Below, in pieces: positions 33,720 to 63,998 of a stretch of DNA of 64,000 bases. The translations under genes were made by a program, and so were the position numbers. A model generated the notes under the pieces. That model was not told the DNA's origin and made no database searches. It saw nothing but the letters and a program-made list of their open reading frames with translations. Source of the DNA: Lathyrus oleraceus (Eukaryota > Streptophyta > Magnoliopsida > Fabales > Fabaceae); assembly GCF_024323335.1 (NCBI RefSeq), contig NC_066581.1:438874281-438938280 (forward strand). The letters are read 5' to 3'. Position 1 is the first letter of the stretch; each line of letters begins with the position of its first letter.

Positions 33720-35234
33720 TGTAATACCCTAATTTTGACCCTAAGATCCCTCATGGCATCATATCATTGCACATTTGCATTTGCCTCAAGGATCATAACA
33801 TCTTGGCTCCTTAACCCTAGGGTTTGGATTTCTGTGAGTTGGTTTGAGACCACCAAGCATGCTTGAATTGTATATTATTGTTTTTATTATTTTGTTTACT
33901 AACCAAAAGCACAAAAATATGTCAATAACAGCTTTTGTTTTGTAGCTTGAGCAATCATAAGATCCAAGGCTCCAAGGAGATCCCTATACTCAATGATACA
34001 GCCAGGTGAAGTGGAAAGCAAGCATGAAAATGGTTCACAAATCTCTCATTAATCATATATGCCTCCCAAGTATCTGAATTTGTCAATTTGATCAAGATAA
34101 ACCAAAGGGCTTGAGGATTGTTTCCCAAGGAAACCCTAATTCATTTGTGCACCAACTATGCCTTGCCAATGAAGCAACCTCAACCCATGATCAAATAAAA
34201 TCAAGGTAAGTTATTCCATTCATAATTTAATGCATATATGGGCTTATGTGAGTGTCCTCAATCATCAATTCATCAAGGTTTGAAGTTTGGACTTGAGAAG
34301 TTGACCAGTCAATTCATCTGACTATTTTGAAATTCACTTAGACCTAACGTTTGACGTGTTTGTCAAATGATGATGAACCCAAGAGAAAAGTGTTCTTCAG
34401 AACCATATGAACAAATTTCATGTTCATCAAAAATTGATTTTAAGCTTGGAAGGTCATCATCCATTTCAAAACATTATAGGTCATTTTGACTGAAACCCTA
34501 ATTTTGGGTCAACTTCCCAAGAACCTAACTCATTCATTTTTCATGATTTGGAGGTGGGATCAAGTTGAAAATTTTAAGATGTATAATTCATTTGTTATGT
34601 TTAACAAATTTTCATAATCCTAAAAGAAATACATGTGATAATATAAAACATTATAGGTCACTTTGGACCAAAGGCATTGAAATGTGAAAAAGTCCAACTT
34701 CAAGTGCCCATAACTTTCTCATCAAAAATCCAAATGAGGCAAAATTTGAGTCCAAATTAGTTGTCTTGAAAAGATCTACAACTTTGATGTTTAAGGTTTT
34801 GTCATTTGAGGCTTTCATAATTGAAATCGAAGGGCTTGAAGTTGGTCCATTTTGGCTAAATTCTCATGCACATGTTTTGCACCTTGAACTTTATGACCAA
34901 TTTTCATTAATTTCCCAACTCCAAATGGATTTTTATTTAACATAACAATTGTCCCTAATGTCAAGACCTTTCCAACCATTACCCACAAGGCCATGTTTCA
35001 TTTTGGTAAGAGGTATTTTCGAAGAGGACAAGATTCATGTGCATTTTTGGAAACATTGTTAAAACTTCATGCACACTCCAATTCAATTACCTGTGCACGT
35101 CCAAACCTGCTCAATTACAATTCAGCATGCCAAATCAATTGGATTTGGGCCTCCCATGCGCCTGTACAGGCCCATGCATGAAGGCCCTCACTTCACGCAC
35201 ACATGAAATTTGCCTTGCTTCCATCAGCTTTTGC

Positions 35235-35243
35235 TATAAATAG
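35235..35243 (+). promoter_or_regulatory. TATA box of the plus-oriented LTR
   Basis: TATAAATAG preceded by CTTTTGC and followed by AGGTGCTTAGC; identical in the inverted copy at 50020-50028. This is the likely LTR promoter core. Confidence 0.65.
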
Positions 35244-35682
35244 AGGTGCTTAGCTTCACCATTTCTGAACCTCAAGGTGCCTTATATGCTGCAAAACTCA
35301 ATCCAAACCTCACTCAAAATGAATTTTGCAATTTCATTTCAATTTTTCAGATCCAATTTTCAACTTCCTTGGTTGATTATTGGACTCTAGTTCCTTAGCC
35401 TAGCCCTATTTCCATCTCAAGAACAAGCTGCTATCAAGAATTGGGAGAGCTCGTGCTTCATAGATCTGCATTTCAAAGGTGGATATCCAAACTTTTTTCA
35501 ATTCGAAACTAACTGATTATAGCTCATTTCTTGTGGTTATTGGCTCCTCTGAAGTCCTCTCATAAGAGGCAATTGAATTGTGCATTTAATTTTGTAAATC
35601 CATCAAGTTCAGATTGAACACCATTATTTTCCATCTCTAGTTTCTCTTCCTATGAGGATCTAGAGTGAAAACCAATGGCACA

Positions 35683-35702
35683 GGGGTGATGTACATCACC
35701 CC
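35683..35702. promoter_or_regulatory. perfect 20-bp palindrome in the LTR
   Basis: GGGGTGATGT is followed immediately by its exact reverse complement. It lies about 440 bases downstream of the TATA box and is kept unchanged in the inverted copy at 49561-49580. It could bind a dimeric protein or form a hairpin in the transcript. Confidence 0.7.
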
Positions 35703-35789
35703 AGCTTTCCAACGATATGAGGATCGCTTGTTTTGGTTAAGTTTTTCATACCTGCAACTTCCACCGGAGATTACCAGCTCGCCGGAGAA

Positions 35790-35811
35790 GACGGTGGTGT
35801 ACACCACCGTC
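35790..35811. promoter_or_regulatory. perfect 22-bp palindrome in the LTR
   Basis: GACGGTGGTGT is followed directly by its exact reverse complement. The centre TGTACA and flanking GGTG/CACC resemble the 20-bp palindrome 87 bases upstream. It is preserved in the inverted copy at 49452-49473. Confidence 0.7.
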
Positions 35812-36209
35812 CCAGTTGCCAGATCTTATGTGGACCATTTGATCATGTTTCCAGTTTGAATCGTGGCCCTTGGATCTTATGACTTTTAATAATTCATTGT
35901 GTTGCTCAGTTGACTCAAGGCTATGATGCGCACGCGCCTGTGAGCCATTTGATGTGCCACATCATTTAATGAAATGAATCCAACGTGCCAGGCTTTTTCC
36001 TATTTTCTGATTTTCTATTTTTATTTTCTTTATTTCATTTTATTTAAAAAATTCATAACTCTTTCATTTTAAATCCAAAAAATATGGGACCAATTGTATT
36101 ATTTCCCTTTTTAATTCTAGTTTCTGAAAATGATTTTTAATATTTTTTATTTTGTCATTCGATATTTTTTGTGAATTTTCTCTTTTCTGGTTATTTTTAA
36201 TTCATTTTA

Positions 36210-37315
36210 GATTTATTGACTAAATCAAAAGTAAATCATACAACTCAAGTCGCCACCACACTTCTATTTATCCAAAGGAAAGGTTAGAAAGCGAAAAAAA
36301 ACCGAGAAGTTTTATCAAATCAAAAACTAATAAAAATGTCAGAGATCTGGGTAAGGGGGTTGGTTATGCAATGGGAAGGTTTTAAGCACCCAAAACATCC
36401 TTAGTACTTTAAGGGAGCCCTTTTCACTAATGTTGTAAGGTAGGTTGATATTTGTGAAAAATTATTTGTGCAAACATGATTGGGGAGATAAGAGAGGAAT
36501 GTACAAATTATTTACAAGTTTGTGTTTGAATGGATAAATCCATTGCCTACGTACCATCTTAAAAAAGATTAGGATCAAAACCTCGTAGTTCGGGGTAAAA
36601 ATCTCAAAAGAAGTTGGTGAATTGATTGGACCAAAAGCCTTAAGGTCTTTTGTTATCAAAGGGAGAAAACTCAACCTAAAACCACAAATCCACCATGTGA
36701 GGAGAGCTTCAACATGCTAGTGAGGGGTTAACCCTATAATAAGCATGAAAGTCTTATAGTCCATCACCAAGGATGTAGGTGAGTATTATATCAACCTCTA
36801 GGATAACTCAAACCTAATAGCTAATGTTTATGAAAAGCTTTGGCAAAAGTGGCCATTGAAACCACAAAAAACAATTGAGTGAGTTGTATTTACCAATGAA
36901 AAGTATTTACAAAGTGTGGTCAAAGTTGACTTAAGGATTCAATTCAAAATAAGTGTTATGAAAAGAAGTTTGGAAAATCAAAAGCATAGTGCTTAGGTTT
37001 CTAATTTTGAAAACAATGTTAATGTTTGCACAAAAGTTGGCTTGGGTTAGAGTGGAGGGAAGAAGAAGAATGGCTAAGTCCTAAGCATACAAAGATGAAG
37101 GAAAAGAAATAATACCACATTGGAGTTCCCTTCTTGAGATCATAGTAATGATCCAAGTTTCTCCCATCCTTTGGAATTAGCAAATAATAAGCAAAGAACT
37201 CAAGCAATCAAGCACACAAATCAAGCTCCTAGGAATCTTCCAATGGCTTTTGTAGCTCTCACTTTGGATGCTCATGACAATGGTTCTTCTAATTGGCAAG
37301 TTTTGGGATCCCTAG
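36210..37315 (-). mobile_element. 3' part of a minus-oriented Ogre-like LTR
   Basis: Read on the minus strand, this contains the conserved Ogre LTR tail: a TACGTAGGCA segment (about 36550), a GAAAAGGGCTCCCTT block (about 36412-36426), CTTCCCATTGCATAAC (about 36370) and GTGTGGTGGCGACTT (about 36249-36263). It continues the LTR at 47775-50973 from which the element at 37316-47769 separates it. Confidence 0.75.
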
Positions 37316-37570
37316 TGTAACACCTAAAAATTTGCCCTCCTCTCTTGGGACTAGCTTAACATATTGCATATCATTTTAGGGAATTAGGCATTGCATATTG
37401 CATATCATGTGGTTACATTGTGCAAGTCATCCTCATAAGTCTTGGTCAGAAGATAGGAGGTTGAGATTCAAGCCTGAGGGTTTATGGACTGGTCACTAAC
37501 TGTCTAAGGATGTGGTGCATCAAATTAGGGTTTTTGATTCTCAAGGAGATTGGTCTTTATCTTGGTTGCC
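37316..37570 (+). mobile_element. 5' LTR fragment of element B
   Basis: Nearly identical to 42837-43091, the start of the 3' LTR. It breaks at TTGCCA, where the sequence jumps into pol. The matching pol end also carries TGCCA in related copies, so the deletion junction shows about 5 bases of microhomology. Confidence 0.9.
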
Positions 37571-37989
37571 AAGCGGCATTTGAAAAAATAAAAGAGTATT
37601 TGCAGGAGCCTCCGATTCTGATGCCTCCTGTGGAGGGAAGACCGTTAATTCTGTACCTGACGGTCCTCGAGGGGTCTATGGGGTGTGTATTGGGGCAGCA
37701 TGACGAGTCTGGTCGAAAAGAGCATGCCATATACTACCTTAGCAAAAAGTTTACCGACTGTGAAACAAGATATTCACTGCTCGAGAAAACTTGTTGTGCT
37801 TTGGTCTGGGCTGCTCGCCGACTAAGGCAGTATATGCTGGTTCATACCACTTTATTGATTTCCAAGATGGATCCAATCAAGTACATTTTCGAGAAGCCAG
37901 CATTGACCGGACGGGTTGCGAGGTGGCAAATGATTTTAACAGAATATGATATATAGTATACCTCTCAGAAGGCTATCAAGGGGAGTGTA
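37571..37989 (+). pseudogene. RT/RNase H connection of element B
   Basis: It starts in the region after the RT thumb (AAFEKIKEYLQEPPIL), then CVLGQHDESGRKEHAIYYLSKKFTDCE and WAARRLRQYM, the RT-linked RNaseH-like fold of Ty3/gypsy elements, and KPALTGRVARWQMIL. The frame is the same as in the downstream 619-residue frame but is interrupted by a single TAG at 37957-37959 where related copies have Glu, so one base change closes the frame. The upstream palm with the YVDD site is deleted. Confidence 0.85.
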
Positions 37990-39865
37990 TTGTCTGATTA
38001 CCTCGCCCAGCAACCCATTGATGATTATCAACCGATGAAGTTTGAATTCCCTGATGAGGACATCATGTTTCTCAAATCGAAAGATTGCGAGGAACCAATC
38101 CCGGAGGAGGGGCCTGACCCTGAATCCGAATGGATTCTGATGTTTGATGGGGCCGTTAACGTGAATGGAAGCGGTGTTGGTGCTGTTTTGGTTACGCCGA
38201 AAGGATCCCACATTCCTTTTGCTGCCCGGCTAACATTTGAGTGTACCAACAACGTGGCTGAATACGAAGCTTGTATATTGGGGATTGAAGAGGCGATTGA
38301 TTTGAGGATCAAGAACCTTGTCATATATGGAGATTCAACTCTGGTGATAAATCAGGTTAATGGGAAATGGTATACGCATCAGTCTCATTTAGTTCCATAT
38401 CGGGATTATACGAGGAGGTTGTTGACGTTTTTCACCAAGGTGAAGATGCATCATGTGCCCAGAGAGGAGAATCCTTTGGCAGATGCTTTGGCTACTTTGG
38501 CCGCCTTGATTAAGGTGCAGTGGTGGAATCAGTTCCCCAGTGTTGAAGTGGGTCGTCTGGATAGACCGGCTTATGTGTTTGTTGTTGATACAGCGCCTGA
38601 TGATGAGAAGCCGTGGTATTACGATATCAAGCGCTATCTTGAGACTCAAGAATATCCCGAGGGAGCATCTAAGAAGGACCGAAAGACTCTGCGGAGGTTG
38701 GCCATGGTGTTCTATCTGAACAAGGATGGGGTTTTGTATAAGAGAAATTTTGATTGGGTCTTGCTCCGATGTGTTGATGATAAAGAAGCAAGCCAGTTGA
38801 TGAAAGAGGTTCATGAGGGATCGTTCGGTACCCATGCCAGTGGGAATGCGATGGTAAAGAAGCTGCTGAGGGCAGGCTATTATTGGATGACCATGGAGGC
38901 CCAATGTTTCAATTTCGTGCGGAAGTGTCATAAATGCCAGATTTATGCTGATAGGGTGCACGTGCCTCCAAACCCGTTGAGTTTAATGTCGTCCCCATGG
39001 CCGTTTGCTATGTGGGGCATTGATATGATCGGAAAGATCGAGCCTACGGCTTCGAATGGGCACAGATTCATATTAGTGGCTATTGATTACTTCACCAAGT
39101 GGGTTGAAGCAGCCTCTTATACGAACGTGACGAAGCAGGTCGTTGCCAGGTTTCTCAAGAGAGACATCATTTGCAGATATGGGGTTCCCGAGAGAATCAT
39201 TACTGATAATGGTTCTAATTTGAACAATAAGATGATGGCAGAGCTGTGCCGGGAATTCAAGATTGAACATCACAATTCTTCTTCCTATCGTCTGAAGATG
39301 AATGGGGCGGTTGAGGCAGCCAATAAGAACATAAAGAAGATTGTGCAGAAAATGGTGGTGACCTATAAAGACTGGCATGAGATGTTGCCGTTTGCATTGC
39401 ATGGGTATCGAACGTCGGTGCGGACGTCTACTGGGGCAACTCCTTTCTCATTGGTATATGGGATGGAAGCGGTGTTACCTGTTGAGGTTCAGATTCCCTC
39501 TTTGAGAGTCCTGATGGACGTGAAGTTGCAAGAGGCTGAATGGGTAAGAACCCGGTACGAAGAATTGAGCCTAATTGAGGAAAAGAGGCTGGCGGCCATC
39601 TGTCATGGGCAGTTGTACCAGCAAAGGATGAAGCGTGCTTTTGACAAAAAGGTGCGACCTCGGGTATATCACGTTGGTGATTTGGTGCTGAAAAGGATCC
39701 TTCCTCCTCAAAACGATCGAAGGGGCAAATGGACACCCAATTATGAAGGTCCATTCGGTGGTCAAGAAGGTTTTCTCTGGCGGAGCCTTGTTGTTAACAA
39801 CCATGGATGGCGAGGATTTTCCATCCCCTGTGAATGCGGACGCAGTTAAAAAATACTTCGTATAA
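37990..39865 (+). pseudogene. RNase H and integrase of element B
   Basis: The open frame of 619 residues holds RNase H at about residues 48-170 (FDGA, AEYEA, YGDS and ADALA, covering the acidic catalytic residues). Then comes integrase with its zinc finger (HEGSFGTH...CHKC, about residues 275-318) and a core with all three catalytic residues: WGIDMIGKI, IITDNGSNL and MNGAVEAANK. A C-terminal KWTPNYEGPF segment follows. One extra G at about 39755 shifts the final 30 residues, giving a stop at 39847; the family frame instead ends at the TAA at 39863-39865. Integrase inserts the cDNA and RNase H removes the RNA strand during reverse transcription. Apart from the stop at 37957 and this frameshift the region is well preserved. 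Confidence 0.9.
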
Positions 39866-39872
39866 AGGAGAC

Positions 39873-40072
39873 CCGCTGGACGAAAAGAATAAAATAGTCC
39901 AGGCAAAAATGGGCATCCCGGCGAACCAAAAAAACAGAAAGAAAGGTTCGGGCAAAAATTAGGGATAAAATGAAAAAATATACACCCGGCAAGTCGAAAA
40001 CCTGAAAAGGCGACTTGGGCAAAAAAGGGTATCCCGGTGGGCTGAAAACCCGAAAGGGCGGTCCAGGCAAAA
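39873..40072 (+). other. array of four covarying hairpins after integrase, element B
   Basis: Four hairpins start about 10 bases after the ancestral integrase stop. Outer stems: CTGGAC/GTCCAG (39876-39881 with 39897-39902), CGAACC/GGTTCG (39922-39927 with 39945-39950), CAAGTCG/CGACTTG (39990-39996 with 40011-40017) and TGGGCTG/CGGTCCA (40038-40044 with 40059-40065). Units 3 and 4 contain an inner stem with a GAAA loop: CCT-GAAA-AGG at 40001-40010 and CCC-GAAA-GGG at 40049-40058. Each unit ends in GGCAAAA. The stem sequences differ while pairing is kept. The same four-hairpin layout occurs in the element at 62840-63036. Confidence 0.8.
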
Positions 40073-42826
40073 GAGGGATTGAAACGAACAACTGCGTCTG
40101 GCATGATCGTTTGCGCTTTGGTTAAAGCATCATGGATAATACCCGGTAGGGATCAATCGGAATCGTCTTGTTCAGAAGGCAGAAAGCACGGAGAGTCTGA
40201 GGACATATGGGGTGTAACCGAGTTGGAACTCGATGAGATCACGGGTTTCACATTGCCATTAGGATAGATTTTTCCTTTTGTGCGCAATTACCTCTTTTCA
40301 GGAATTGCTTCCTTTGTATTGCTCGGTTTTGAGCCACACTTTTCCAAATCAATAAAATGCATATTCAGTCAAATAATTTTGTTTTTGTTTTTCATTACCG
40401 CTTTGATTGCAAAAACATCCAGGTTATTTTTGATAAAGAATTTTGCATTTTTAAGACATACAGGTCCCTTCCAATGCATGTTTATAAGATTGAAAGCTTG
40501 AAATCTTATTCGGAAGGTTGAGTGACCCAAATGTTGAAATCTTGAAACACCTGGGGCACGGTTTTATCTAACGATCTATTTTGCAGGTACTGTTAGATAT
40601 TTGCGCTCACTTGCAGGTTGTGATGCGGAAGCTTTTGACAAAGCCAATCCCCATGGGGTCCAATCAGGGACGAATGAATGTGAAGGGATGACGAAGAGAC
40701 GTTGAGACGTACGACGATCCTTGAATGATAATCAAGAAGACTCTTCAAAATCGGAAGATTGGAAAGTCTGTAGAAATTCCCCGCAGGGTCCAATCAGGGA
40801 CGAATGAGCAGAAGAATGATGAAGAGACGGCAGGACGTACGATGATCCTTGGAATTAATCAAGAAGACTCTTCAAAGTCGGAAAATTGAAAAGTCTGTAT
40901 AGTCCCCAGGAGTTCGCTCTCCGTCGAGCGCGGAGCGGTTGGGAATACAAGATGATGGAGCAGAAAAGGTCTAGACGAGTCGGGATGTATATCCCCAAGC
41001 AGAGTCATGAAGACCAAATCCCCGGCAGATCCAAGGTCTGTGGTTCCCCTGGCAGGGTCGGGATCGTTATCCCCAGCAGGTGTCAGACCGATGCTTCCCC
41101 AGTCGCCAGGCCTGGAGGTTGTTGTTTCCCCAGCAGAGCTATCTGTGAGCATTTCCCCAGTGAAGTCGCCAGGTATTTGTGAGGGTTCTCCAAGCAGAGT
41201 CGGGATTGATATCCCTAGTAAGTCAAAGACTGTTGTATCCCCACAGAGTGTTGGTGGTTCTTATACCCAGCAGTTTCCCGAGCGGATTAGGTGCAAAGGA
41301 GGTTCTTCCCCAGCAAGGGTTACCTTTTCCCAGCAGCAGCAGTGCTATTCTCCAGCGGGGTGGAGATCGGAGAATTGACGAGTTCCTCAACGGAGTGTCT
41401 CGTGCTCCCCAGCAGAATCCTTTGAGGGGGATGCTTTTTATGCATTCATCATGTAGAATAAGCATAGCATGTTGCATAGAAAAATAAATCGCGTAGCATT
41501 TCCATAATGGTGGAGCATTACGCAGAAAAAGTCATGCATCATATTGCAAGCATAAACTAGTCTCAGGCCGTGGTTACTGTTTGAGAGGTGGTTTTGCCCA
41601 AAGGTGAAGGTGTTACTCCGAGGAGTTTAGCATCGTGGTTTTAATCAAAGGTATTCCCCAGTAGTGCGATACTGGAAGAATTTGTTTTCTGTCGGCCAGA
41701 GATGGAAATATTACGCGATCAGCGCGACTCAAGCCGTGGTTACCGCTTGAGGTTTTGGTTTCGCCGGATGGTGAAGATGTTACTCTGAGGAGTCTAGCAT
41801 CATGATGTCAGATCAGCAATGTTCCCCAGTAGTGCGATACTGGAGGAAATTTTTTCGTCGGACGGAGATGGAAATGAAATCAAAGGATGTTACGCGATCA
41901 GCGCGATTATCGGGGTTCAATTGGAGAAAGGGAAATGTTAAGACATTTTCTGGAGATTGGGGACCAAATAGAGATTGGAGTTGAAGATTATATCCAGGAT
42001 GAGGTCCGCAGGATTATCTTCTGTTCATGTGTCACCTTAGACTTTGGCTGAGGTCAATGGAAGTCGTTAAGGGTGTCTTCTGAAGAAGAGATGCACATGT
42101 TACCTTCCTTTTGTGAAGGTTTACCCTCTGATATGTCGCCCTCAGAGTGGTTTGGTGTTATTTCCGATGTTGCCAGCGGAATTATCACAAGAAATTGGAG
42201 AACGGGGTTCAAACGGAGAAAAGGAAATGTTGAGACATTTTCTGGAGAGCGGGGTTCAAATGGAGAAAGGGAAATGTTGCGACATTTTCTGGAAAATGGG
42301 GTTCACAATGGCGATCGCAAGTTATCGTCAGGCGACTGGGGTTCAAATGGAGAAAAGGAGACACGAGGTGTCTTCTGGAGATTGGGATTCATTATTTTGG
42401 CAAACAAGGTGTTGGGGTTCAAATGCAGTGATCTGGGATCATTTGCGCAAAGAAAATTTCGGGGTTCAAGAAAATGAGAAAGAGAAGAAAAATTTTGGGG
42501 TTCAAAATAAAAATAAAAATAAAAATAAAAAAGGAAGAAAGAGATAATAATCCCTAGCGGATGTGGTGTTCAGGCCAAGGTTATCCCTGCGTTACCATTT
42601 ATTTTGGTATCCAGGTTGATGTTGTTGTTTCGGTGATCAAGTCGACTTTTTCCGTACTAGACGGATGTTTCTTCAAGATTGTGTTCTTCGCCGATTCTGA
42701 CAGGCGTTGTTAATTATTTCCCATCAGAGTGCAAATTGTTCGTCTGTTCTTGGTATTCAATCACTCTTCATCCTGATCATCTGAAAGCCGAGGCTATTCA
42801 TATTGACAGATTCACAGTGGATTGAA
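40073..42826 (+). repeat. hypervariable 3' region of element B with several tandem duplications
   Basis: There is no coding sequence. Repeats seen: two copies of a roughly 125-160-bp unit with GGGTCCAATCAGGGACGAATG (at about 40660 and 40783); a CCCCAGCAG...CGGGAT-rich stretch (about 40900-41420); two copies of a roughly 160-bp unit with CCGTGGTTAC...CCCCAGTAGTGCGATACTGG (about 41567-41725 and 41730-41890); and a 52-bp-like unit with GGAAATGTTGAGACATTTTCTGG (about 41920-42300). Short open frames here are repeat artefacts. In Ogre elements this zone before the polypurine tract is known to be variable and to give rise to satellites. Confidence 0.7.
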
Positions 42827-42834: not shown

Positions 42835-45800
42835 ACTGTAACACCTAAAAATTTGCCCTCCTCTCTTGGGACTAGCTTAACATATTGCATATCATTTTAG
42901 GGCATTAGGCATTGCATATTGCATATCATGTGGTTACATTGTGCAAGTCATCCTCATAAGTCTTGGTCAGAAGATAGGAGGTTGAGATTCAAGCCTGAGG
43001 GTTTATGGACTGGTCACTAACTGTCTGAGGATGTGGTGCATCAAATTAGGGTTTTTGATTCTCAAGGAGATTGGTCTTTATCTTGGTTGCCATGATACAT
43101 CATCATCATCATGGTCTTGCTATCATCCAGGAGATTCAAGTGATTGATCAGCTACCTTGAGATTAGGGTTTTGACCACTGGTCAACCCTAATCAGTTGCA
43201 TTGGGCCAATCAGGGCATGGCAAGGAGATGGGGTCTACAATGGATATGGGGATCATCATGTGGTTGTTTTGAGCTTATGGAAGCTAGGGGTTCATCCTTG
43301 AGCCATTTCATCAGAGAATTGAGCTTCAACTGGATCAGTGCATTGCCAAATTCATCTATCAGTTGAAAAAGTCAATTATGGTCAATTGTGCTTGATTTTA
43401 TGGATTTGGAGGTGGGAGAGAGTTGGATATACTTCATTCATGTTGAAACAAGCTTCATTTGACATTTCAAACCTCAAGAATGAAGAAAATAAAATCAGAT
43501 GGAAAATTGCCAAAAATAGAAAGTGACTTGTAATGGAAGTTTCCAAAAATGGAAAGTTTTTCATCACAAAATTACCTGTCCAAAAAAGCTTCAAATGAAA
43601 ATTTGTCCATCATGAAAGTTGTGGATCTTGCTCTCACCTTTCCAAAAAGTCCAAGAACTTGAAATTCCCATGTATGGTTGACAAGTTATGGTCCATTCAT
43701 TTTCCAAAAATGCCTATAATCAAAGTGGCATAACGTTCACATGGAATGTCCAATTTGGGTGATCTTTTTGTGAGCAAACCCCATTTCACATGTACTTTCA
43801 TAATGTGTGATCAAAATTCATCAAAAATGGTCAAGGCAAAAAGTCAATTTTCAAGTGGATGCATTTGTACTTTTGGTGTGAGATAGTGAAATTGAGTTTT
43901 ACAAGGAATTTGCACATGAAACCAATGCCAACACACTCCAAATTCCAAATAAAACATGTTTGAGCTGTCATTTGCTGTCATAGTGCATTATTTTGAAAAG
44001 GTCATTTTGGACATTGCACTTAAAATCACATTATGCTAAATCAAGCTAATTTGCTAATTGTGATTAAGGAAAGGGATTAAGGAGTGAGTATAAGTTTCTA
44101 ATCCTAACAGAATCATAATCACAATTCCATTTTCCAAGATTCATAACTGAATTTCTCTCCAAAACCACAAAATTCTCTCAAAACTTCATCACTTTTTTTC
44201 ACATTTCTTCATCAATTCTTCATCAATTTGCTTCGTTCTTCTTGGATCCACACTCCACAAGTGATGTTGATGAACTGTCTTACAAAATTTGTGGCCAAAG
44301 CTTGATGAATGTGGACTGTCCAAAGCTTGCTCATCAATGGAGTTTTGAAGATTCTTGCAATTGGTGCTGTTTCGAGCTAGCCTAATCTTTCCAATCATCT
44401 TCCTAAACATCAAGCTGCATCTGTTTGGACCTTTTGCACCTGGAAAAGCACAAATTCGCGTCTGCCATCTCCAAGAGGTTAGGTTTCGAATTTCACCATT
44501 CATTGAATTGAGATATGGCATTTATAGATCTTCCAATGTAGAATGCTATGCTGCTTGTAGTTTTGATTTTGGTTAATTATTGAGAGAGAAATCTTGTTTT
44601 AAAGTTTAGATGCCAAAACTTCTTTCAATCGATTCGCATTGTATATGAATTTCTGGACAATTTCATGATGATATATGTGATGTGTGTGCTTAGACGGTTC
44701 CAACGGTACCTCGTTTGTTAATTTTGGTTGAGTTTTGTTCGTTATGACTTCTGGAGTTTGAATGGTGAAGAACAGCGAAGAACTTGAAAAATTCTGGAAA
44801 AATTAACGTGTTGATCTTCTTTCCCTGGCCGCGCTTTCAAATCCGTGTTTCCCTCCAAGCTGAGCGAATCAGAACGCGCCATCACATCAAGTGATGCGCT
44901 GCGTTTTGGGCCAGGGTTTCAGTAATTACGACTTTGCCATTCAGAATTAATAAATTCATTTTCATGTTAAATAAATATTTCATTATTTCAATAAACTTCA
45001 AAAAATCAAAACAAATCCCATTTTCATCCAAATTGCATGGGAATTTTTGTGTTGGATCCCAAATTTCATCTAGTTTTTTATAGGCATGGTAGTCAAAGTT
45101 GTGCCTGGAGAATTTTTGACTTTGCCTATTGATCTTGTTCATGTATGCATTTTGTGTATGTTTCACCATATTGATCATGAAATGATGATACCTTAGCCAA
45201 AATGCATGAAATTTTATAGGCTTGTTCTTGACTCATTGCTAGTGATTTTGATGTGTGGTTTGTGAATTTTGGATTTATGGTTTGCAAGTTATGATGTGTG
45301 CAAGTTGAGTGTGACAATGTGTGTCACACTAGGTTAGGTCAACTTCCTGATTTTATTTGATATGTCTATGCTTTGCCAATTGACCTCAAATTTTGCATGT
45401 GATCTCCTCTGTAAGTCTAGTTTTTCTATGATTTTATGTAGGAATTGTTGATTCATTTCCTATTTGATTGGGATTTTTTCTTGCTGTTTAGACATTTTAG
45501 GGTTTTGCTTGAGTGATTGCCTTAAATGCTATGTGAAATTGCCATACCTTATCATATGAAGATGAAATTTGATGGAGTGATTCCTCACATGTTTGAGTTC
45601 ACTTTGGCTTTGGTCCCATTCATTTCTTATTTGTTCTCACTATTTTGCATTTGATTGAAGTTGATGTTTGTTTGGATGCCTTGTGTTGGCTTGTTTGAAA
45701 TTGTCTGAACTTCTTGATTTTCATTGACCTACTTCCTCTTGTCCAAATTGCATGAAATTTGATATGCTATTCATTGGATATGTTTTGTTTAGGTTGGGAT

Positions 45801-47370: not shown

Positions 47371-49451
47371 TGTGTTTGTGTTTGTTTGTTTGGCGTGCGT
47401 GAGCCGAACTACGGCAGCTCTGATTCTCGTTCCAGACGAGATACGTAGGCATAGGACGCAATATCCTAGCGAGCCCTCTTCCTCTTAACCCCACCTGCGT
47501 TGTCATTGGTGTGTGTGTGTGATGTTTGTTTTAGCAACCTTTTCTTTCTTTTAGAGCGTGGATCCCGTCGAGTACGACGGACGTGAGGGGTGCTAATACC
47601 TTCCCCTTGCGTAACCGACTCCCGTACCCTTTCTCTTTGGTCGCGAGACCATGCTTTTCCCAGGTTTACTCTGAGCGTTTCCTTTCCCTCTTTTGGGATA
47701 AATAACGCACGGTGGCGGCTCTGTGTTGTTTTTGTTTCAGCCCGCCGGTTGTTTTTCGCGGATGCGACACCTAGCACAAGAACACACACATTAAAAAGTT
47801 CCATAATGCAAACAAAGAATTGACAAGAGTGAGTTTAGAGATTGGGTCCTTTCAATGTTCATCTTCATCTTTAAGCATTCTAAAGGCATGAGGCCTAGTT
47901 GATCTTTGACATTTATAGCATTCTAAAGGCATGAGGCCTAGTTGCTCTTCAAACTCCATTAGCATAAGGAAAGTCCTAAAATCTAAGTCCTTTTGTCCAT
48001 TTGCATTTGGTTCACACAATCAAAACAAAACAAGCACAATAATATATACACAATAATATGCTCAAGTGAGCAAAAGGCAAATTGCATTAACATAAACATG
48101 AGCTCAAGTGAGCAAAGGGCAAAAGCAAATGAATAATGTACGAGAATATTAAATTGCATTAAAGTAAATTGCAAGAATTAAATGACTTGAATTAAAAGTT
48201 AGTGTTAATAGTCAATGTTAGTGTGCCATAAGGCAATTTAGTGCTATGTTAAGAAATCGTAAGTGGACTAATGTAGTAGTCACACCAATCTGAGGCCGGT
48301 CAATAAAACTATAGGCAACAAACACAAGTTAGAGGCCATGGCTAGTAAGCCAAGCTCCTACAACTTGCCAGCCAAAAGAAAAGAAGAATGATCGTGTATT
48401 GACTTAGGTTTTTTGCTTGACCAAGAAGCAATCTATCCTTAATGCAAAGCCATTCACTTGATCTATGATCAAGATGAATTAGATTTGAATCAAAGAAGGT
48501 TAAGCCTCCCAAATGTTAAGGCTAACCACCAATCTTTAACTCATTGATCAAAAAGAAAAAGAAGAAAAAGAAGATGAATAAGAATATACATGAATTGAAA
48601 TTCAAATGAAAAAAGAAAATTACATTGATCAAAGATGAATGGAATCAAAGTCAATCAATGGTAAACAGAATCAAAATGAAACTTAGAAGTCAAGAAACAA
48701 ATAAAATATTTTTGGTATTTTTGAAAATTAAAATAATACTTGAATTAAAATAATCAAACAAAGGTCAAACTTCAAATCCATTTCAAATCAACTTGGAAAA
48801 GTCTAAATGGATCATCCTAAGTTCAACAAAGTCAAACAAAGTTTGACAAAATTTTTCAGCATTTTTGGAAACCAGAAACTATTTTTAAACAATTAAAAAT
48901 GAATAAAAATAACCTAATTGAACTAAAATCTCAAATAAATCTCAAATAAATCTCAAATCAATTAATAAATTGATGAGAATATTTTTCATAGATCCATCAT
49001 CATTCAAAGAGGTTAAGAAAATATTTTTGTATTCTTTGAATATTGGAAACTATTTAAAATGAATTAAAAATAACCAGAAAAGAGAAAATTCACAAAAAAT
49101 GTCAAATGACAAAATAAAAAATATTAAAAATCATTTTCAGAAACTAGAATTAAAAAAGGAAATAATGCAATTGCTCCCATATTTTTTGGATTTAAATGAA
49201 AGAGTTATGAATTTTTTAAATAAAACAAAATAAAGAAAATAAAAATAGAAAATCAGAAAATAGGAAAAAGCCTGGCACGTTGGATTCATTTCATTAAATG
49301 ATGTGGCACATCAAATGGCTCACAGGCGCGTGCGCATCATAGGCTTGAGTCAACTGAGCAACATAATGAATTATTAAAAGTCATAAGATCCAAGGGCCAC
49401 GATTCAAACTGGAAACATGATCAAACGATCCACATAAGATCTGACATTAGG

Positions 49452-49473
49452 GACGGTGGTGTACACCACCGTC
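49452..49473. promoter_or_regulatory. perfect 22-bp palindrome, inverted LTR copy
   Basis: Same palindrome as at 35790-35811 (half-site GACGGTGGTGT). Confidence 0.7.
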
Positions 49474-49560
49474 TTCTCCGGAGAGCTGGTCATCTCCGGT
49501 GGAAGTTGCAGGTATGAAAAACTTAACCAAAACAAGCGATCCTCATATCATTGGAAAGCT

Positions 49561-49580
49561 GGGGTGATGTACATCACCCC
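49561..49580. promoter_or_regulatory. perfect 20-bp palindrome, inverted LTR copy
   Basis: Same palindrome as at 35683-35702 (half-site GGGGTGATGT). Confidence 0.7.
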
Positions 49581-50019
49581 TGTGCCATTGGTTTTAACTC
49601 TAGATCCTCATAGGAAGAGAAACCAGAGATGGAAAATAATGGTGTTCAATCTGAACTTGATGGATTTACAAAATTAAATGCACAATTCAATTGCCTCTTA
49701 TGAGAGGACTTCAGAGGAGCCAATAACCACAAGAAATGAGCTATAATCAGTTAGTTTCGAATTGAAAAAAGTTTGGATATCCACCTTTGAAATGCAGATC
49801 TATGAAGTACGAGCTCTCCCAATTCTTGATAGCAGCTTGTTCTTGAGATGGAAATAGGGCTAGGCTAAGGAATTAGAGTCCAATAATCAACCAAGGAAGT
49901 TGAAAATTGGATCTGAAAAATTGAAATGAAATTGCAAAATTCCTTTTGAGTGAGGTTTGGATTGAGTTCTGCAGCATATAAGGTGCCTTGAGGTTCAGAA
50001 ATGGTGAAGCTAAGCACCT

Positions 50020-50028
50020 CTATTTATA
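50020..50028 (-). promoter_or_regulatory. TATA box of the minus-oriented LTR
   Basis: TATAAATAG on the minus strand, in the same context as at 35235-35243. Confidence 0.6.
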
Positions 50029-50973
50029 GCAAAAGCTGATGGAAGCAAGGCAAATTTCATGTGTGCATGAAGTGAGGGCCTCCATGCATGGCCTGTACAG
50101 GCGCATGGGAGGCCCAAATCCAATTGATTTGGCATGCTGAAATGTAATTGAGCAGGTTTGGACGTGCACATGTAATTGAATTGGAATGTGCATGAAGTTT
50201 TAACAATGTTTCCAAAAATGCACATGAATATTCTCCTCTTCGAAAATACCTCTTACCAAAATGAAACATGGCCTTGTGGGTAATGGTTGAAAAGGTCTTG
50301 ACATGAGGGACAATTGTTATGTTGAACAAAAATCCATTTGGAGTTTGGAAATTAATGAAAATTGGTCATAAAGTTCAAGGTGCAAAACATGTGCATGAGA
50401 ATTTAGCCAAAATGGACCAATTTCAAGCCCTTCTGTTTCAATGATGCAAACCTCAAATGACAAAACCTTCAACATCAAAGTTGTATATGTTTTCAAGACA
50501 ATCAATGTGGACTCAAATTTTGCATCATTTGGATTTTTGATGAGAAAGTTATGGGCACTTGAAGTTGGACTTTTTCACATTTCAATGCCTTTGGTCCAAA
50601 GGGACCTATAATGTTTTGTATTATCACATGTATTTCTTTTAGGATTATGAAAACTTGTTCAACATAACAAATGAAGTAGACATCTTAAAATTTCCAATTC
50701 ATTTGATCCCACCTTCCAATCATGAAAAATGAATGAGTTAGGTTCTTGGGAAGTTGACCCAAAATTAGGGTTTCAGTCAAAATGACCTATAATGTTTTGA
50801 AATGGATGATGACCTTCCAAGCTTAAAATCAATTTTTGATGAACATGAAATTTGTTCATATGGTTCTTAAGAACATTTTTTCTCTTGGGATCATCATCAT
50901 TTGACAAACACGTCAAAAGTTAGGTCTCAGTGGATTTCAAAATAGTTAGATGAATTGACTGGTCAACTTCTCA

Positions 50974-55975: not shown

Positions 55976-58900
55976 TTTGTTTATTAGTGTGCTCGCGAAG
56001 ATACACTAATCTCCTGCCTACGTATCCTTAAATAAGGAAGTCAGAGCATTCGTAGTTCGGGGAACTACGGTTAATTGGTGTTTTTTAATGAGCAACTGTT
56101 TAGATTGTATCCTAAAGGCTAAACGTTGGCTTGTCTACTCTCGGCGGAGGCTTAAATACTAGTTTGTTGTGAGCGTTAGAAGAGATTAAATAGTGTTCTT
56201 TCTGAAAAGAGTTTTGATCACGCGAGGGTGACAAGTTGAATTAATATATTGGGTGTTTTGTTTGATTGGTTTTGATTGCACAAGGGCGAGAAAAGGATAT
56301 GATTGATATGTTAAGATATTTTTGTTTGGATGACGATTAATCGGATAGTCGAGTAAGACAACTCGTATCCTAATAGTCGAGGAGAGGAATCAAAGGCTCT
56401 AGACCATCTCCCTTTTCATCCTTAAATGTAAAAGGAGTTTAATAATAGTTAAGGTACTTTAAATGGATGATGATTACTCAGATAATCGAGTAAGACAACT
56501 CGTATCCTAATAATCGGGAAAGGGAATAGAAGACTCTAGAAACGCTTTCTGTTTCATCTGAGTAATTATGAAAAGAAGGTTGTATATGGTTGACGTATTT
56601 TAGAATGAACGACTAGTACTTGAATGATTGAGTAAAACAACTCATATCCAAGCATTTGAGAAGAGGAGTTGAAAGCTCAAAACCATCTCCTTTTTCGTAC
56701 AGTTTGTTATGAAAATGATTTGATTAAGTTGTAAGTTGGTGGAAAAATGACAATTGTTCGACTGACCGAGTAAGAAACCTCGTATTCAAACAATTGAGGA
56801 GAGAAGTCGAAAACTCAAAATCATCTCCCTTTTCATTTCTTTATTATGACAATGTTTTGATTTAATTGGGGTTTGGAAGTTTGTAGAGGAACGACAATTA
56901 TTTGACTAACCAAGTAAGAGAACTTGTATTCAAATAGTCGAGGAGAAAAATTGAAGACTCAAAGTCATCTCCCTTTTCGTTTCTTATTATAAGATGATTC
57001 GATTTGTTTATGCTTAGGTGGATGAAAGTGACGACTATTTGACTAACCGAGTAAAAGAACTCGTATTCAAATAATCGAGGAGAGGAGTTGAAAACTCAAA
57101 ACCATCTCCTTTTTCTTTTCTAAATGAAATAGTATTTAATTGTGATTAGGTATTTTACTTTAATTTTAATAAAGAATACTTGATGTTGGATCGAGATTTT
57201 AAATTTGTGTTTATGCATGAAATGAATTTTATTTTAGTGTATCGATTACCTGCTCGATTAAAATCGAATAGGTCTCATTGTAAGAAAGCCCAAGAGTAAG
57301 CCATGTGAGGTTGATGGCAATACTTTTACAAGTAATCGACTTACAGAGGTGTTTTGGAAATGGGCTCGACTTTGAATCGAGATGTATATGATTTATTTTC
57401 AAATTGGCTCGAATGATTTTTAAATCGATGAAAGCGACATAATTTTGTCGCAATTATAACATGTCATTTCGTGTGCACTCAAGGTTCGGTATAAACAAAT
57501 AAATAAAGAATAATCATGCACATACACTCCACAAGATAAACAAACATCTAAGTTATGAAGGACATTTGTGATGATATAATTAATTAATTAATTGAACATT
57601 TAACGGATTATTTTATTTTAATTAAATAATAAGTAATAAAAAAATGGATATAACCAAATAATTGCATATTTATTAAATAGTAATAATGATAATAACAATA
57701 TAATTGTGTATTTACTTTTAAAAGTTAATAATAATAATGTTAATATAATTACATATTTACTATATTAAAAAAAATATTAATAATAATATAATTATAATTT
57801 CAAAATAAAATAAATAAACCAAAGCATTGTCTTATTTTAATAACCAAAGAATCTATTGTATATTTTTTATGTATAAAAAATAGAGTAAGTGAAATAACTT
57901 GAAAATGCATGTAAATGGGCCAAGGGAAACAGACCAAGCCCTAAATAGGCACTGCTAGAAGTTTCCAGGAGGGTGTTATCAGCAGAAAAATCGAAAAACA
58001 CAATGAAGAGGAAATGGGCCTAAAGAAAGGGAAATCCAGGAAAGGTCCGGTCAACCGTGTTGATCCAAAAGACTCCCTTTGTTCTGGTGACAAGTGTCCA
58101 AGACTCGTGACACTTGTCACCACTACCCACAAGTCTCACACGGCTACTTTAAAACAATATATGGAAAAAAAGAAACTTTATTTTACAAATCCTTTCTCTC
58201 TCCTCAATCTTCCAAACGCTCAGAAGGAATTCTGCAACCCTAAAAATACGTTCTTCCCTCCCGGAGAAGACGGCGGAAGGCGGCGGCTCACGGTGGAGCC
58301 TCCCTTCTTCTCCGGCCACCCTAACCAAAACACAACCTAGCCCACTAAATGCAACCTTCCGAGTTCGAACCCGAACTCCAAAATCCCTAAACCAAACTCA
58401 AACCTTCTAGATCGGAGCAAAATCCAACCGATCTAAAACTTCTCCAATCCCTAAACCCTAGTTTCGAAATCAAAGCTTTTGCAATCACGATTTAAGGAAA
58501 ATAACAGGGGGTTTGTTCCACTTACCACGACGAAGGAGATTGAGTAATGATTTCAGGCGAGAGTGGGAGAAGGAACGTTTTTGGTCTGAGTTCGTCGCCG
58601 GCGATCCGTCACGGCCCAGATAAGCTTTCTTTTCCTCTTGATCTCTTCCGTCCTCCTCTGTTTTCTTTTCTTAAAAAAAATTTCTTTGATTTTTCTTTGC
58701 CTTATGGTTCACCGTCCCTTGTCCTTTTGAATACTATGTCTTTTATGTTTTTTCAGAAAACCAAAAGTTATTTCTTGATCGCCTCTCTCCTCCTACTGTT
58801 AACTTATATATGATAAGCTTTTCATGATGAATTTTAAGTCTTAAAAAAACTATTTGTCAGTTTTCATCCCATCCCAGATTTCATGGGATTTGATTTTGTA

Positions 58901-60070: not shown

Positions 60071-60229
60071 CTCAAACCGGAAAGTAAGAATGATAGCAGT
60101 CTTTATGCATTCGCGGTAGGAGATAATTAAATACAAGAAGACCCAAATTTTGTCCTAGGAAATGAAAGGAAGAAAATACAGGAAGAAAATGCGGTGAGAA
60201 ATGGCAAAAGACATTATCCTACAGTAAAA

Positions 60230-61440
60230 TGGAACAGTCAAGACTTTCTGTGAGTCATCAGAATAATATCTTGGATATCTCAGTCGAGATATGTGGAATA
60301 ACATCCCTAGATAAATCTCAAGACTTTCCAGGATGCTAGAATAATATAAAGGAACTCTGACATGAGACTCTTCATTTTGATGAAGCAGCATCTCAAATAG
60401 TAAAAGTGAGATTCTTTGTATCGAGTCGAAACAACATCTTATACGATAGAATTAAGAGATTCTATCAAAAGGAAAAAATACCTTGATTGAATCTAAGATT
60501 CTCCAAGGATATTAGAGCAGTATCTCTAAAAAAATCTGAAATGAGACTCTTCATATTGATGAAGCAGCATCTCAAATTGTAAAAATGAGATTCTCTGTAT
60601 CGAATCGAAACAACATCTTATATGATAAAATTATGATATTCAAGCAAGGAAGAAAAATACCTTAGTTGAATCTAAGACTATCCGATGATATTAGAGCAGT
60701 ATCTCTAAAAAAATCTGAAATGAGACTCTTCATATTGATGAAACATCATCTCAAACAGTAAAAATGAGATTCTCTGTATCAGATCGAAACAGAATCTTAT
60801 ATGATAAAATTAAGATATTCCAGCAAGGAAGAAAAATACCTTAATTTAATCTAAGACTTTCCGAGGATATTAGAGCAGTATCTCTAAAAGAATCTGAAAT
60901 GAGACTCTTCATATTGATGAAACAGCATCTCAAACAGTAAAAAATGAGATTCTTTGTATCGGATTGAAACAACATCTTATATGATAAAATTAAGATATTC
61001 CAGCAAGGAAGAAAACTACCTTAATTGAATCTAAGACTTTTCAAGGATACTAGAGCAGTATCTCTAAAAGAATCTGAAATGAGACTCTTCATATTGATGA
61101 AACAACATCTCAAACAGTAAAAATGAGATTCTCTGTATCGGATTGAAACAACATCTTATATGATAAAATTAAGATATTCCAGCCAGGTAGAAAAATACCT
61201 TAATTGAATCTAAGACTTTCCGAGGATACTAGAGCAGTATCTCTAAAAGAATCTGAAATGAGACTCTTCATATTGATGAAACGTCATCTCAAACAGTAAA
61301 AATGAGATTCTCTGTATCGGATCAAAACAACATCTTATATGATAGAATTAAGATATCCCAGCAAGGGAAAAATACCTTAATTGAGTCTAAGACTCTCCGA
61401 GGATATTAGAGCATATCTTAAACAGATAAATGAGATTCTT
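60230..61440 (-). repeat. 179-bp tandem array in the 3' region of element C
   Basis: GAGATTCT(C/T)TGTATCG recurs at 60408, 60587, 60766, 60946, 61125 and 61304, a spacing of 179-180 bases. The middle units are very similar; the outer copies (60230-60407 and after 61390) are diverged. It lies between integrase and the polypurine tract. Confidence 0.9.
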
Positions 61441-61510: not shown

Positions 61511-62839
61511 TTCGTCTGTTGGGGGAATTTTTAAAGAAAGGACTCCTTTTGAGGGAGATTTACTAGAAATGTTCTGCAGGGGGAAAAGCTCATGAGCGAC
61601 TTTTTAGGGTAACCTCCGCTTGGGGAGCAATGATTGTAAAAAATGTTGGGAATATCAATTTTAATCATAAAGTTGAAAAAATGGCTTACTGGAAAATGAT
61701 TCCACGAGCACATGCAGGGTAGTAACTTCATTTGGAAATGAGGAATGTCCAAGATACACATGAACAACCTTGGTTCCTGATATTTTATATTTGATTTTTT
61801 GTATGATGTCCCACTTTAGGCGGGAATTCCATGCATGGGATGCATGCAAGTATGCAATGTTGCTGGGGATATCTGGTTGTGCATGTAGGAATGCGAACGA
61901 TTTTTTTTTATTTTTTTGTTGAAATTCCCATTTTGTGGGAGTGTTATGCATGAGTGCGCTGATGATTGATATGACTATGTTTTTTTAATTTTCTGCTTGG
62001 TAGGAAAACCATTTATGAATGATTTATATGATGCATGTTAGAATGCAAATGGGTAATTGGATATGCCCCGGTTAAGACATTTCGCTTTGAGGTACGATGC
62101 CAACAGTGTGGACTTTTGTCATTGGGGTGATTAATGTAGATCAAATTTTAATGCCCCTTCTAGGTGGTTTTAGGAATATATTTGGGTTGTTCTGAGTTAT
62201 TGAAGGGTTCAGACTTCTCAACACGTGATACTCCATCCATGATTTACCAATGTTTCTGTTGGAAACGAATGGGTCCTTGCCCCGGTCTGGCTAAACCATG
62301 AGTACATTTATGAGAGGTATGAATTAGTAGTTGAAAGGGACATAACCATTTGCGATCAATCCTACACCTTTATGAAAAACAAGAATGAATCTTGGAGACT
62401 AAAGGATTCGTCCACTTTACTGTTTCAAAAGCAATTTTACCACTCTAATCAAACATGTGTTTTATTTTCTCCAATAATTTTTAAAAGTGATGTTTATCAA
62501 AAATAAAAAGGTGCTTTGCAAACAAACAGATAAAACAAAATAAAAAAATGATTTTGGGCACACTTTTGTTGCGAAAAATTCTCTTTTATTGATTTGACCC
62601 TTAAATGGGTGATTGTACATAAAGACGCAATTCCTTAATGAGGTAATTGTTGCGCATAGAAACAAAATGGCAATGAAAATTGAGTCCTTATTGAGTTTCC
62701 ACACTGCTATGATCCTTATGTCTTTGATAATCCAAGCACTTTGCTTTCGAAAAGTGAGGTAAGTTGATTCTTTGTCTTCGAGGGTATGTCAGATGTCTGT
62801 AAGTACAACTCTTTGCCTTGGAATTAATCCCTAACTTTT
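61511..62839 (-). other. non-coding 3' region of element C
   Basis: No coding or further array is recognised. The sequence has several short diverged repeats (for example GGGAATTCCATGCATGGGATGCATGCA near 61820). Small open frames are not supported by any domain. Confidence 0.4.
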
Positions 62840-63036
62840 TCCTGGACCGCCCTTTCGGGTTTTCGATCCACCGGGATACCCATTTTTGCCTGAGTCGCCC
62901 TTTCGGATTTTCAACTCAGCGGGTCAAATTCTTTTATTTTTATCCCTAATTTTTGCCTGGATCGCCCTTTCGGGTTTTCGATCCACCAGGATAGCTATTT
63001 TTGCTTAAATCTCCCTTTCAGGTTTTCGATTTAGCG
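62840..63036 (-). other. array of four covarying hairpins after integrase, element C
   Basis: In minus-strand order: TAAATC/GATTTA (63028-63033 with 63006-63011), TGGATCG/CGATCCA (62979-62985 with 62958-62964), TGAGTTG/CGACTCA (62912-62918 with 62891-62897) and TGGATCG/CGGTCCA (62864-62870 with 62843-62849). Each encloses GAAAA plus an inner (C/T)C(C/T)-GAAA-GGG stem-loop and is followed by GCAAAAA or a close variant. Spacing between hairpins (48, 67, 48) matches that of element B (46, 68, 48). Confidence 0.8.
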
Positions 63037-63056: not shown

Positions 63057-63998
63057 TTAGGCGAAGTATTTTTTAACAACATCAGCGTTGGTAGGAAGCG
63101 GCAACTCATCACCATCCATAGTAGCTAGAATCAGAGCGCCTCCGAAAAAGGCTCTAACCACCACAAATGGACCTTCATAATTTGGCGTCCATTTCCCTCT
63201 GAAGTCTTTGTGAATAGGCAAGATTTTCTTCAGCACTAAATCTCCCTCTTGAAACACCCTGGGACGAACTTTCTTGTCGAATGCCTTTTTAAGACGCCTC
63301 TGATAGAGTTGATCATGACCTAACACTTTCAAGTGTTTCTCCTCAATAAGGTTGAGCTCGTCGTACCTTGATTGAACCCATTCTGCCTCGTCTAACTTAG
63401 CCTCCATCAATACTCTCATCGAGGGGATCTCCACCTCTATAGGGAGAACTGCTTCCATACCATAAACCAAGGAATAAGGGGTTGCCCCTGTTGAATTTCG
63501 TACCGACGTGCGATAACCATGTAATGCAAAAGGTAACATCTCGTGCCAATCCTTATACGTGACAACCATCTTTTGGATTATTTTCTTGATATTTTTATTT
63601 GCAGCTTCAACAGCCCCATTCATCTTGGGTCGATAGGGTGATGAGTTGTGATGCTCAATTTTGAACGTTGCGCATAAAGTATCCATGGTTTTGTTGTGGA
63701 GATTGGACCCATTATCAGTGATTATTTTGTTGGGAATCCCATATCGACATATGATGTTAGTTTTTAAGAAACGAGCGACTACGTGCTTCGTGACGTTTGC
63801 ATAAGACGCGACTTCCACCCATTTGGTAAAGTAATCTATGGCCACCAAGATAAATCTGTGTCCATTTGATGCTTTGGGTTCTATCATTCCAATCATGTCG
63901 ATGCCCCACATAGAGAAAGGCCAAGGTGATGATATGACATTTAGCAGAGTAGGTGGTACATGTATTTTGTCAGCATAGATTTGGCATTTGTGGCACGC
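63057..63998 (-). CDS. Ogre integrase (element C), open to the window edge
   Basis: On the minus strand the frame is open from the window edge. It contains the last Cys pair of the zinc finger (CHKC, at about 63989-63978) and the integrase core with WGIDMIGMI (first Asp), IITDNGSNLHN (second Asp) and MNGAVEAANK (Glu). The C-terminal part runs through PYSLVYGMEAVLP, KKAFDKKVRPRVFQEGDLVLKKIL, KWTPNYEGPF and VVKKYFA before a stop at 63057-63059. No lesion is visible in the 313 residues present. It aligns along its whole length with integrase of element B on the other strand. It would insert element cDNA into chromosomes; whether the whole polyprotein is intact cannot be seen. Confidence 0.9.
   Translation of the reverse strand, partial: ACHKCQIYADKIHVPPTLLNVISSPWPFSMWGIDMIGMIEPKASNGHRFILVAIDYFTKWVEVASYANVTKHVVARFLKTNIICRYGIPNKIITDNGSNLHNKTMDTLCATFKIEHHNSSPYRPKMNGAVEAANKNIKKIIQKMVVTYKDWHEMLPFALHGYRTSVRNSTGATPYSLVYGMEAVLPIEVEIPSMRVLMEAKLDEAEWVQSRYDELNLIEEKHLKVLGHDQLYQRRLKKAFDKKVRPRVFQEGDLVLKKILPIHKDFRGKWTPNYEGPFVVVRAFFGGALILATMDGDELPLPTNADVVKKYFA

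Follow-up and report, generated by a model that had tools for sequence, protein, structure and literature searches.

A repeated hairpin module behind Ogre-like integrases of Lathyrus oleraceus, a structured retrotransposon RNA with a possible role in nuclear export

Directly behind the stop codon of a retrotransposon integrase, the DNA analysed here (a stretch of 64,000 nucleotides from Lathyrus oleraceus, hereafter the window) carries a row of short inverted repeats. Do these fold into an RNA structure that selection has maintained and, if so, what could that structure do for the element? Papers are cited by PMC accession, for the excerpts available from them.

Layout of the hairpin array

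The initial annotation had described four consecutive hairpins shortly after the integrase stop, with four different stem words each matched by its complement, one of them with G-T pairs, and with two GAAA-capped inner stems, CCT/AGG and CCC/GGG. All of these are present in the sequence, with the hairpins (array A) at 39871–40079 and the stop at 39863–39865; R1 in the list is a covariance model built from 23 units.

37957–39862, plus strand: second RNase H domain and integrase, upstream of array A (Pfam RVT_3, Integrase_H2C2 and rve in a 630-aa frame, 37957–39846)
39863–39865, plus strand: conserved integrase stop codon (from the sequence)
39871–39914, plus strand: hairpin 1, CTGGAC/GTCCAG, plain A-rich loop (from the sequence)
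39915–39966, plus strand: hairpin 2, CGAACC/GGTTCG, outer helix ATCCC/GGGAT (R1 match 39913–39968, E 1.3e-10)
39984–40030, plus strand: hairpin 3, CAAGTCG/CGACTTG, AAAA bulge, CCT-GAAA-AGG tip, outer helix ACCC/GGGT (R1 match 39986–40028, E 6e-8)
40031–40079, plus strand: hairpin 4, TGGGCTG/CGGTCCA, AAAA bulge, CCC-GAAA-GGG tip, outer helix ATCCC/GGGAT (R1 match 40029–40081, E 7.5e-16)

All four hairpins are genuine, and they are part of a more extensive repeated RNA module. A unit consists of an outer helix (CCC/GGG type) and an inner helix whose sequence varies, with an asymmetric internal loop between the two. The letters of the internal loop are nearly frozen, with G-G or G-C on the left strand and GGCAAAAA on the right, where GGCAAAA(A) and a few further letters separate the helices before the outer helix closes. 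Outer helices in array A are of the ACCC/GGGT or ATCCC/GGGAT type, with only CCC/GGG in hairpin 1, and the inner stem of hairpin 4 is the one that contains G-T pairs. Units 3 and 4, like many units of the repeated module, carry an extra AAAA bulge and a 3-bp tip with a cap that is usually GAAA, as it is in both of these. Array A is laid out as two modules of two hairpins (1–2 and 3–4) with an A-rich linker between them. In sister copies, the stem homologous to that of hairpin 1 reads CTAGGT/ACCTAG.

Of 200 dinucleotide shuffles of the 220-nt stretch of array A, 199 fold less well than the original (z −2.8), which is only suggestive. The minimum-energy fold of array A counts against the hairpins, with strands of units 1 and 4 engaged in long-range pairings instead; the centroid fold contains the inner stems of all four. 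Across 36 modules, the predicted pairing is 0.87 and 0.91 for the inner helices, 0.74 and 0.80 for the outer helices and 0.05 for cross-pairing, and 25 modules have a mean folding z of −2.2 (range −4.2 to +0.3).

A second array of the same layout (array B) lies at 62827–63035 on the minus strand, behind another integrase, and R1 finds three units of array A and four of array B and nothing else across the 64-kb window. Array B goes beyond the initial annotation, as do the outer helices, the near-constant internal loops, the AAAA bulges and the grouping into modules.

62827–62877, minus strand: array B hairpin 4 (R1 match 62825–62879, E 3.7e-20)
62878–62924, minus strand: array B hairpin 3 (R1 match 62882–62918, E 3.3e-8)
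62941–62993, minus strand: array B hairpin 2 (R1 match 62940–62994, E 1.4e-19)
62994–63035, minus strand: array B hairpin 1, with degenerate tip and outer helix (R1 match 62997–63033, E 1.7e-6)
63060–63998, minus strand: integrase of the array B element, an open frame up to the stop (Pfam rve, E 1.2e-13)

The host element

The element that carries array A (element A) is likely an Ogre-type retrotransposon. Ogre and Retand are distinguished by a second RNase H, of archaeal type, located between RNase H and integrase (PMC6317226). Element A has this second domain, the Pfam order being RT_RNaseH, then RVT_3/RNase_H, then the integrase zinc finger and core, and it fits Ogre and Retand alike. We provisionally take the family to be Ogre on the basis of the initial annotation and of family abundance.

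Element A is flanked by 256-bp direct repeats (TG...CA, 99%) at 37316–37571 and 42837–43092, around which no matching 5-bp flanks were seen. The copy is broken, because the conserved C-terminal end of its integrase (39692–39862) reads in another frame than the rest. It also lacks the 5′ coding part, the stretch between the repeats starting in mid reverse transcriptase/RNase H, and its 5′ junction looks like a microhomology-mediated deletion. Tandem repeats begin at about 40656, downstream of array A.

Abundance and position behind integrases

A skeleton pattern made of unpaired letters only, and therefore blind to structure (AAAA-N3-GAAA-N10-GGCAAAAA), occurs 65,930 times in the genome as an exact match (33,008 + 32,922), and the reversed control 12 times (5 + 7). 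The first 30 places among the matches listed comprise 23 distinct arrays, and each of the 30 has, immediately upstream and in the same orientation, an integrase C-terminus resembling the one before array B. Counted by eye in 24 arrays, there are four hairpins in 14 (clade 1) and three in 10 (clade 2).

Approached from the other side, a pattern for the integrase end has 26,189 + 26,043 = 52,232 exact matches in the genome and none in the reversed control. The first 62 among the matches listed, minus two near-identical neighbours, gave 60 integrase ends chosen blind to the array. The initial annotation had named absence from most Ogre families as one result that would count against it; in this genome R1 matches behind 59 of the 60 ends (E ≤ 0.01; 58 of 60 at 1e-7), with five of the 60 loci holding an R1 training row letter for letter. 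The sole locus without a match (L090) has no array by eye either. Among the 138 matches at E ≤ 1e-7 behind these ends, none is antisense. A looser descriptor of the full two-helix unit hits 52 of the 60 loci but is permissive, hitting 124 of 300 anchor-preserving shuffles as well.

Another integrase-ending pattern (596 + 634 matches, control 8) supplied the first 20 among its matches listed as a lineage control; their frames, several of them truncated, share about 25–38% identity with the array B integrase, 17 of the 20 at E < 1e-5 and the rest at 0.003–0.045. R1 has no match at E ≤ 1 behind any of these 20 ends, which come from the same genome but are less closely related. Scans of IMG/VR returned no relatives or matches, and a search of bacterial and archaeal contigs returned none.

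One of the distant integrase types (L136) has a G+C-rich, hairpin-prone stretch right after its stop (424–623 of that locus, z −2.0), of other sequence than the array and perhaps another structured 3′ UTR.

Structure close behind a stop codon is a known readthrough layout, and the first helix of array A begins 5 nt past the integrase stop. A stimulator of stop-codon readthrough is nevertheless very improbable: the frame after the stop closes after 8 codons in array A and 12 in array B, the first hairpin, as located with a simple pattern, starts at 8–11 nt in most clade-1 copies and at 17–42 in most clade-2 copies, and readthrough would leave four units unexplained. Variable stop spacing and short post-stop frames led us to reject it.

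Compensatory changes in the helices

From 74 parsed units, 47 were kept as the main alignment (A1); degenerate units and near-duplicates were dropped, as were the central units of L040–L069, which had been selected for their broken pair. A2 (23 units) and A3 (17 units) are equal-length subsets. Paired cells amount to 97.9% in A1 against 87.2% in shuffles, and covariation to 0.578 against 0.343 ± 0.019 in shuffles and at most 0.224 when the alignment is slid. Both sides have changed in five of the 10 pairs of A1. By number of pairs, such double changes are no more frequent than in shuffles, 235 of 500 of which attain the same count; by number of cells they are (72 versus 25). Outer helix pairs divide into GC 11/AU 10 and UA 13/CG 10 in A2 and into AU 12/GC 3 and CG 11/UA 6 in A3. 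All double changes counted in A1–A3, the five pairs of A1 included, are transitions, a point against the reading favoured below. Hairpin 1 exists in two forms, TGGAC/GTCCA (31 of 37) and TAGGT/ACCTA (3 of 37), which differ by three compensated pairs.

To look for transversions, we used a pattern in which the middle inner position on the 3′ side has to be a purine; it has 546 matches (control 23). Among 30 that were fetched, eight were A-rich chance matches and 22 were the motif, with the pair broken in all 22 motif units. These broken middle pairs are post-insertion decay without compensation, and there is no compensated transversion among them.

The array-blind loci give a second sample, of 103 distinct matches, which were found by the model and aligned to it: 95.4% of cells are paired and covariation is 0.422 versus 0.245. 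In the same model-found and model-aligned matches, the GGCAAAA letters are 91–100% identical and the inner-stem letters 54–84%. For hairpin 3 across the two clades (63 copy pairs), identity is 44% at 4-fold sites, 67% at paired positions and 99% at unpaired positions, the last value being inflated because units were picked by their unpaired letters. A plain MAFFT alignment across clades (three of 60 loci omitted) placed the arrays out of register, and its 61% unpaired-column identity was not used.

Because shuffles ignore relatedness, changes were also mapped on a tree of the integrase ends, under a null in which each column's changes are redistributed over its branches. Tested per column pair in hairpin 3 (50 loci), no single pair is significant, the best values being E 1.2 for outer pair 3 and E 2.25 for inner pair 1. 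With the four hairpin sets taken together, the tree shows 25 double pair-keeping changes, where the null has a mean of 3.4 and never exceeds 10 in 1,000 replicates; pair-breaking changes number 54 against 67.7 (5 of 1,000 as low). This sum draws on 81 loci, among which a few may represent the same copy twice, and its hairpin-4 set holds at least two wrongly registered rows. No doubles are counted in the hairpin-1 set, which probably reflects a change located at the root of the tree. Taken alone, hairpin 3 and the last clade-2 hairpin account for 14 doubles, where the null means are 1.0 and 0.6.

Covariation was one check that the initial annotation had proposed for its claim of a selected RNA structure, and a lack of significantly covarying pairs would have told against the claim. 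That objection applies in part, since covariation holds for all pairs summed and does not reach significance for any one pair of hairpin 3; the compensating changes, the pairing rules of the sense strand described below and the presence behind 59 of 60 integrase ends favour the claim. Selection on RNA structure in the element's transcript is supported. The array shares with elements of the CTE/RTE type that it is a conserved RNA structure from the 3′ portion of an LTR element.

In 36 modules, the middle outer pair is C-G in both hairpins 3 and 4 in 22, T-A in both in 12 and mixed in 2; the matching pairs may reflect one event at the clade split or an alternative pairing between hairpins.

Could the hairpins be a by-product at the DNA level, inverted repeats duplicated by mutation, comparable to the hypervariable tandem repeats in the 3′ regions of Ogre, with no function as RNA? 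Those regions are known for tandem repeats (PMC7004042, PMC3305785), and one array-blind copy (L077) has its two-hairpin module twice, so arrays can grow by module duplication. We regard this explanation as scarcely credible: the stems covary around loops that hardly change, G-U is commoner than A-C, and the array stays in position although the sequence downstream cannot be aligned by eye between the clades.

Sense-strand pairing and variable parts

Over the four hairpin sets, 1668 cells are Watson–Crick pairs, 135 G-U, 31 A-C and 56 other mispairs. Since an antisense RNA would show A-C, the excess of G-U points to selection on the sense RNA. The same counts (G-U 135 versus A-C 31) led us to reject a DNA cruciform or an antisense RNA.

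In class-1 units, the bulge is AAAA in 73 of 74 and the tip loop GAAA in 54, GCAA in 7 and AAAA in 7, counts made with a pattern that limited the letters allowed. Hairpins 1 and 2 and the last clade-2 hairpin have other apical parts. Since the internal loop between the helices is common to the units, it is the likely recognition site.

A candidate role in export of unspliced RNA

If, as we infer, the array is transcribed in vivo, as part of the 3′ untranslated region, its most probable role is tentatively that of a protein-binding platform for nuclear export of the unspliced, intron-containing element RNA; we would rank this first, closely followed by a role in stability or translation and by packaging. 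Inner and outer helices would form a scaffold, free to drift in sequence, that displays three or four successive internal loops. On these, one protein, with a host export adaptor or the element's own Gag as candidates, would bind in several adjacent copies, and the bound array would mark the RNA as exportable despite its retained intron. A loop that recurs along a scaffold of freely changing sequence points to one protein bound at several successive sites.

We favour export because of the intron of Ogre, the unstudied state of export in plants and the distribution of the array among integrases. According to a 2025 review, Ogre has a functional intron, plant LTR elements are generally without one, and RNA export of these elements has had no direct study in plants (PMC12786077). 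In MPMV, IAP and musD, structured RNA elements export unspliced RNA (PMC7551171, PMC12786077). Presence behind Ogre-like integrases and absence behind the 20 others fits a need tied to that lineage. Against export, the array would be in spliced and unspliced RNA alike and therefore could not by itself mark the unspliced form. To our knowledge plants lack a clear NXF1 orthologue, so the animal export route is not directly copyable.

An array directly 3′ of the coding region could also be thought of as a 3′-UTR stability or translation element, in which the hairpins with A-rich loops would bind a protein that protects the RNA or recruits translation, with no export role; we consider this unlikely, although it comes next after export. 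An A[AT]TAAA hexamer lies +380 to +560 after the stop in 18 of 24 loci, in both clades and before the variable repeats, and with this hexamer downstream the array could lie in the 3′ UTR of an internally polyadenylated mRNA. The hexamer evidence comes from A+T-rich sequence with no chance estimate, which weakens this case. A precedent is the ENE in the spacer between the ORF and the 3′ LTR of Arabidopsis Evade, which stabilises the RNA and promotes mobility (PMC12501189), but the array is no ENE, as set out below. In the window, the hexamer occurs at 40351 (plus strand) and 62585–62590 (minus strand).

Packaging or dimerisation is the slightly less likely of these two close alternatives. Here Gag (nucleocapsid) would bind the repeated loops and select genomic RNA for particles, and several near-identical loop motifs in a row would suit such a multi-site signal. 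The array would, however, not be confined to unspliced RNA, and apical loops differ between paralogous hairpins, so there is no evident kissing loop. In the small sample of 30 skeleton loci, moreover, the coding end of the integrase is always retained, with no array-only non-coding derivative.

Relation to known RNA elements

The closest parallels to the export reading are the MPMV constitutive transport element and the IAP RTE/musD MTE, which are likewise structured RNAs of LTR elements, the MPMV element being a stem with two internal loops (PMC7551171, PMC12786077). The array described here is instead a tandem series of short hairpins, its internal loop is a different one, its host is a plant element, and it has no Rfam match.

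The ENE of Evade/Copia93, too, is structured RNA from a plant LTR retrotransposon and lies between coding sequence and 3′ LTR, but its defining feature is U-rich internal loops engaged in a triple helix with poly(A) (PMC12501189). Loop and bulge letters of the arrays are A/G-rich (A 1122, G 476, C 141, T 116). Among 45 array-blind arrays with at least two GGCAAAA, a T5 run occurs in none, and with no U-rich loop either, identity with the ENE was rejected.

Hypervariable tandem repeats or minisatellites occupy the same interval between coding region and 3′ LTR in the same lineage; these are family-specific direct repeats that spread as satellites (PMC7004042, PMC3305785). By comparison, the array is short, structured and kept across clades, and in element A it lies upstream of such repeats. 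The genomic RNA of yeast Ty3 shows structured cis elements in a gypsy-type retroelement, and the excerpts of its description mention no repeated hairpin array behind the integrase (PMC11381356).

Searched with Rfam 15, the interval 39800–40400 of the window gives six matches up to E 5, all far below the gathering score, and a known Rfam family was rejected on that ground. In the excerpts of open-licence PMC literature we found no description of a hairpin array behind plant integrases; literal motif words have no occurrence in PMC text, and the word hairpin is absent from the main texts of PMC11963269, PMC3305785 and PMC6317226. The array is thus a conserved structured RNA module with no description found in Rfam or open papers, on an element with tens of thousands of integrase-end copies. 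Mutants of the loop, the helices or the whole array would give a handle on nuclear exit of plant LTR-element RNA, a subject described as unstudied in the excerpts of PMC12786077, and the array is a non-coding signature of element copies that can be searched for in other plants.

A bolder form of the export reading, which we hold to be doubtful, is that these two-helix modules of ~50 nt, with their shared loop GG/GGCAAAAA, make up a new RNA family. They would be the first element known to export the RNA of a plant LTR retrotransposon, and would take a non-NXF1 route to a plant export adaptor. Were this true, the ~66,000 exact-skeleton matches would place it among the most abundant structured RNA motifs of the genome.

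Other repeats in the window

The window also holds six tandem copies of a 179-bp repeat at 60223–61418, tandem repeats of about 137–144 bp at 56312–57122, and a 1.9-kb inverted repeat, 96% identical, at 34294–36212 and 49052–50973.
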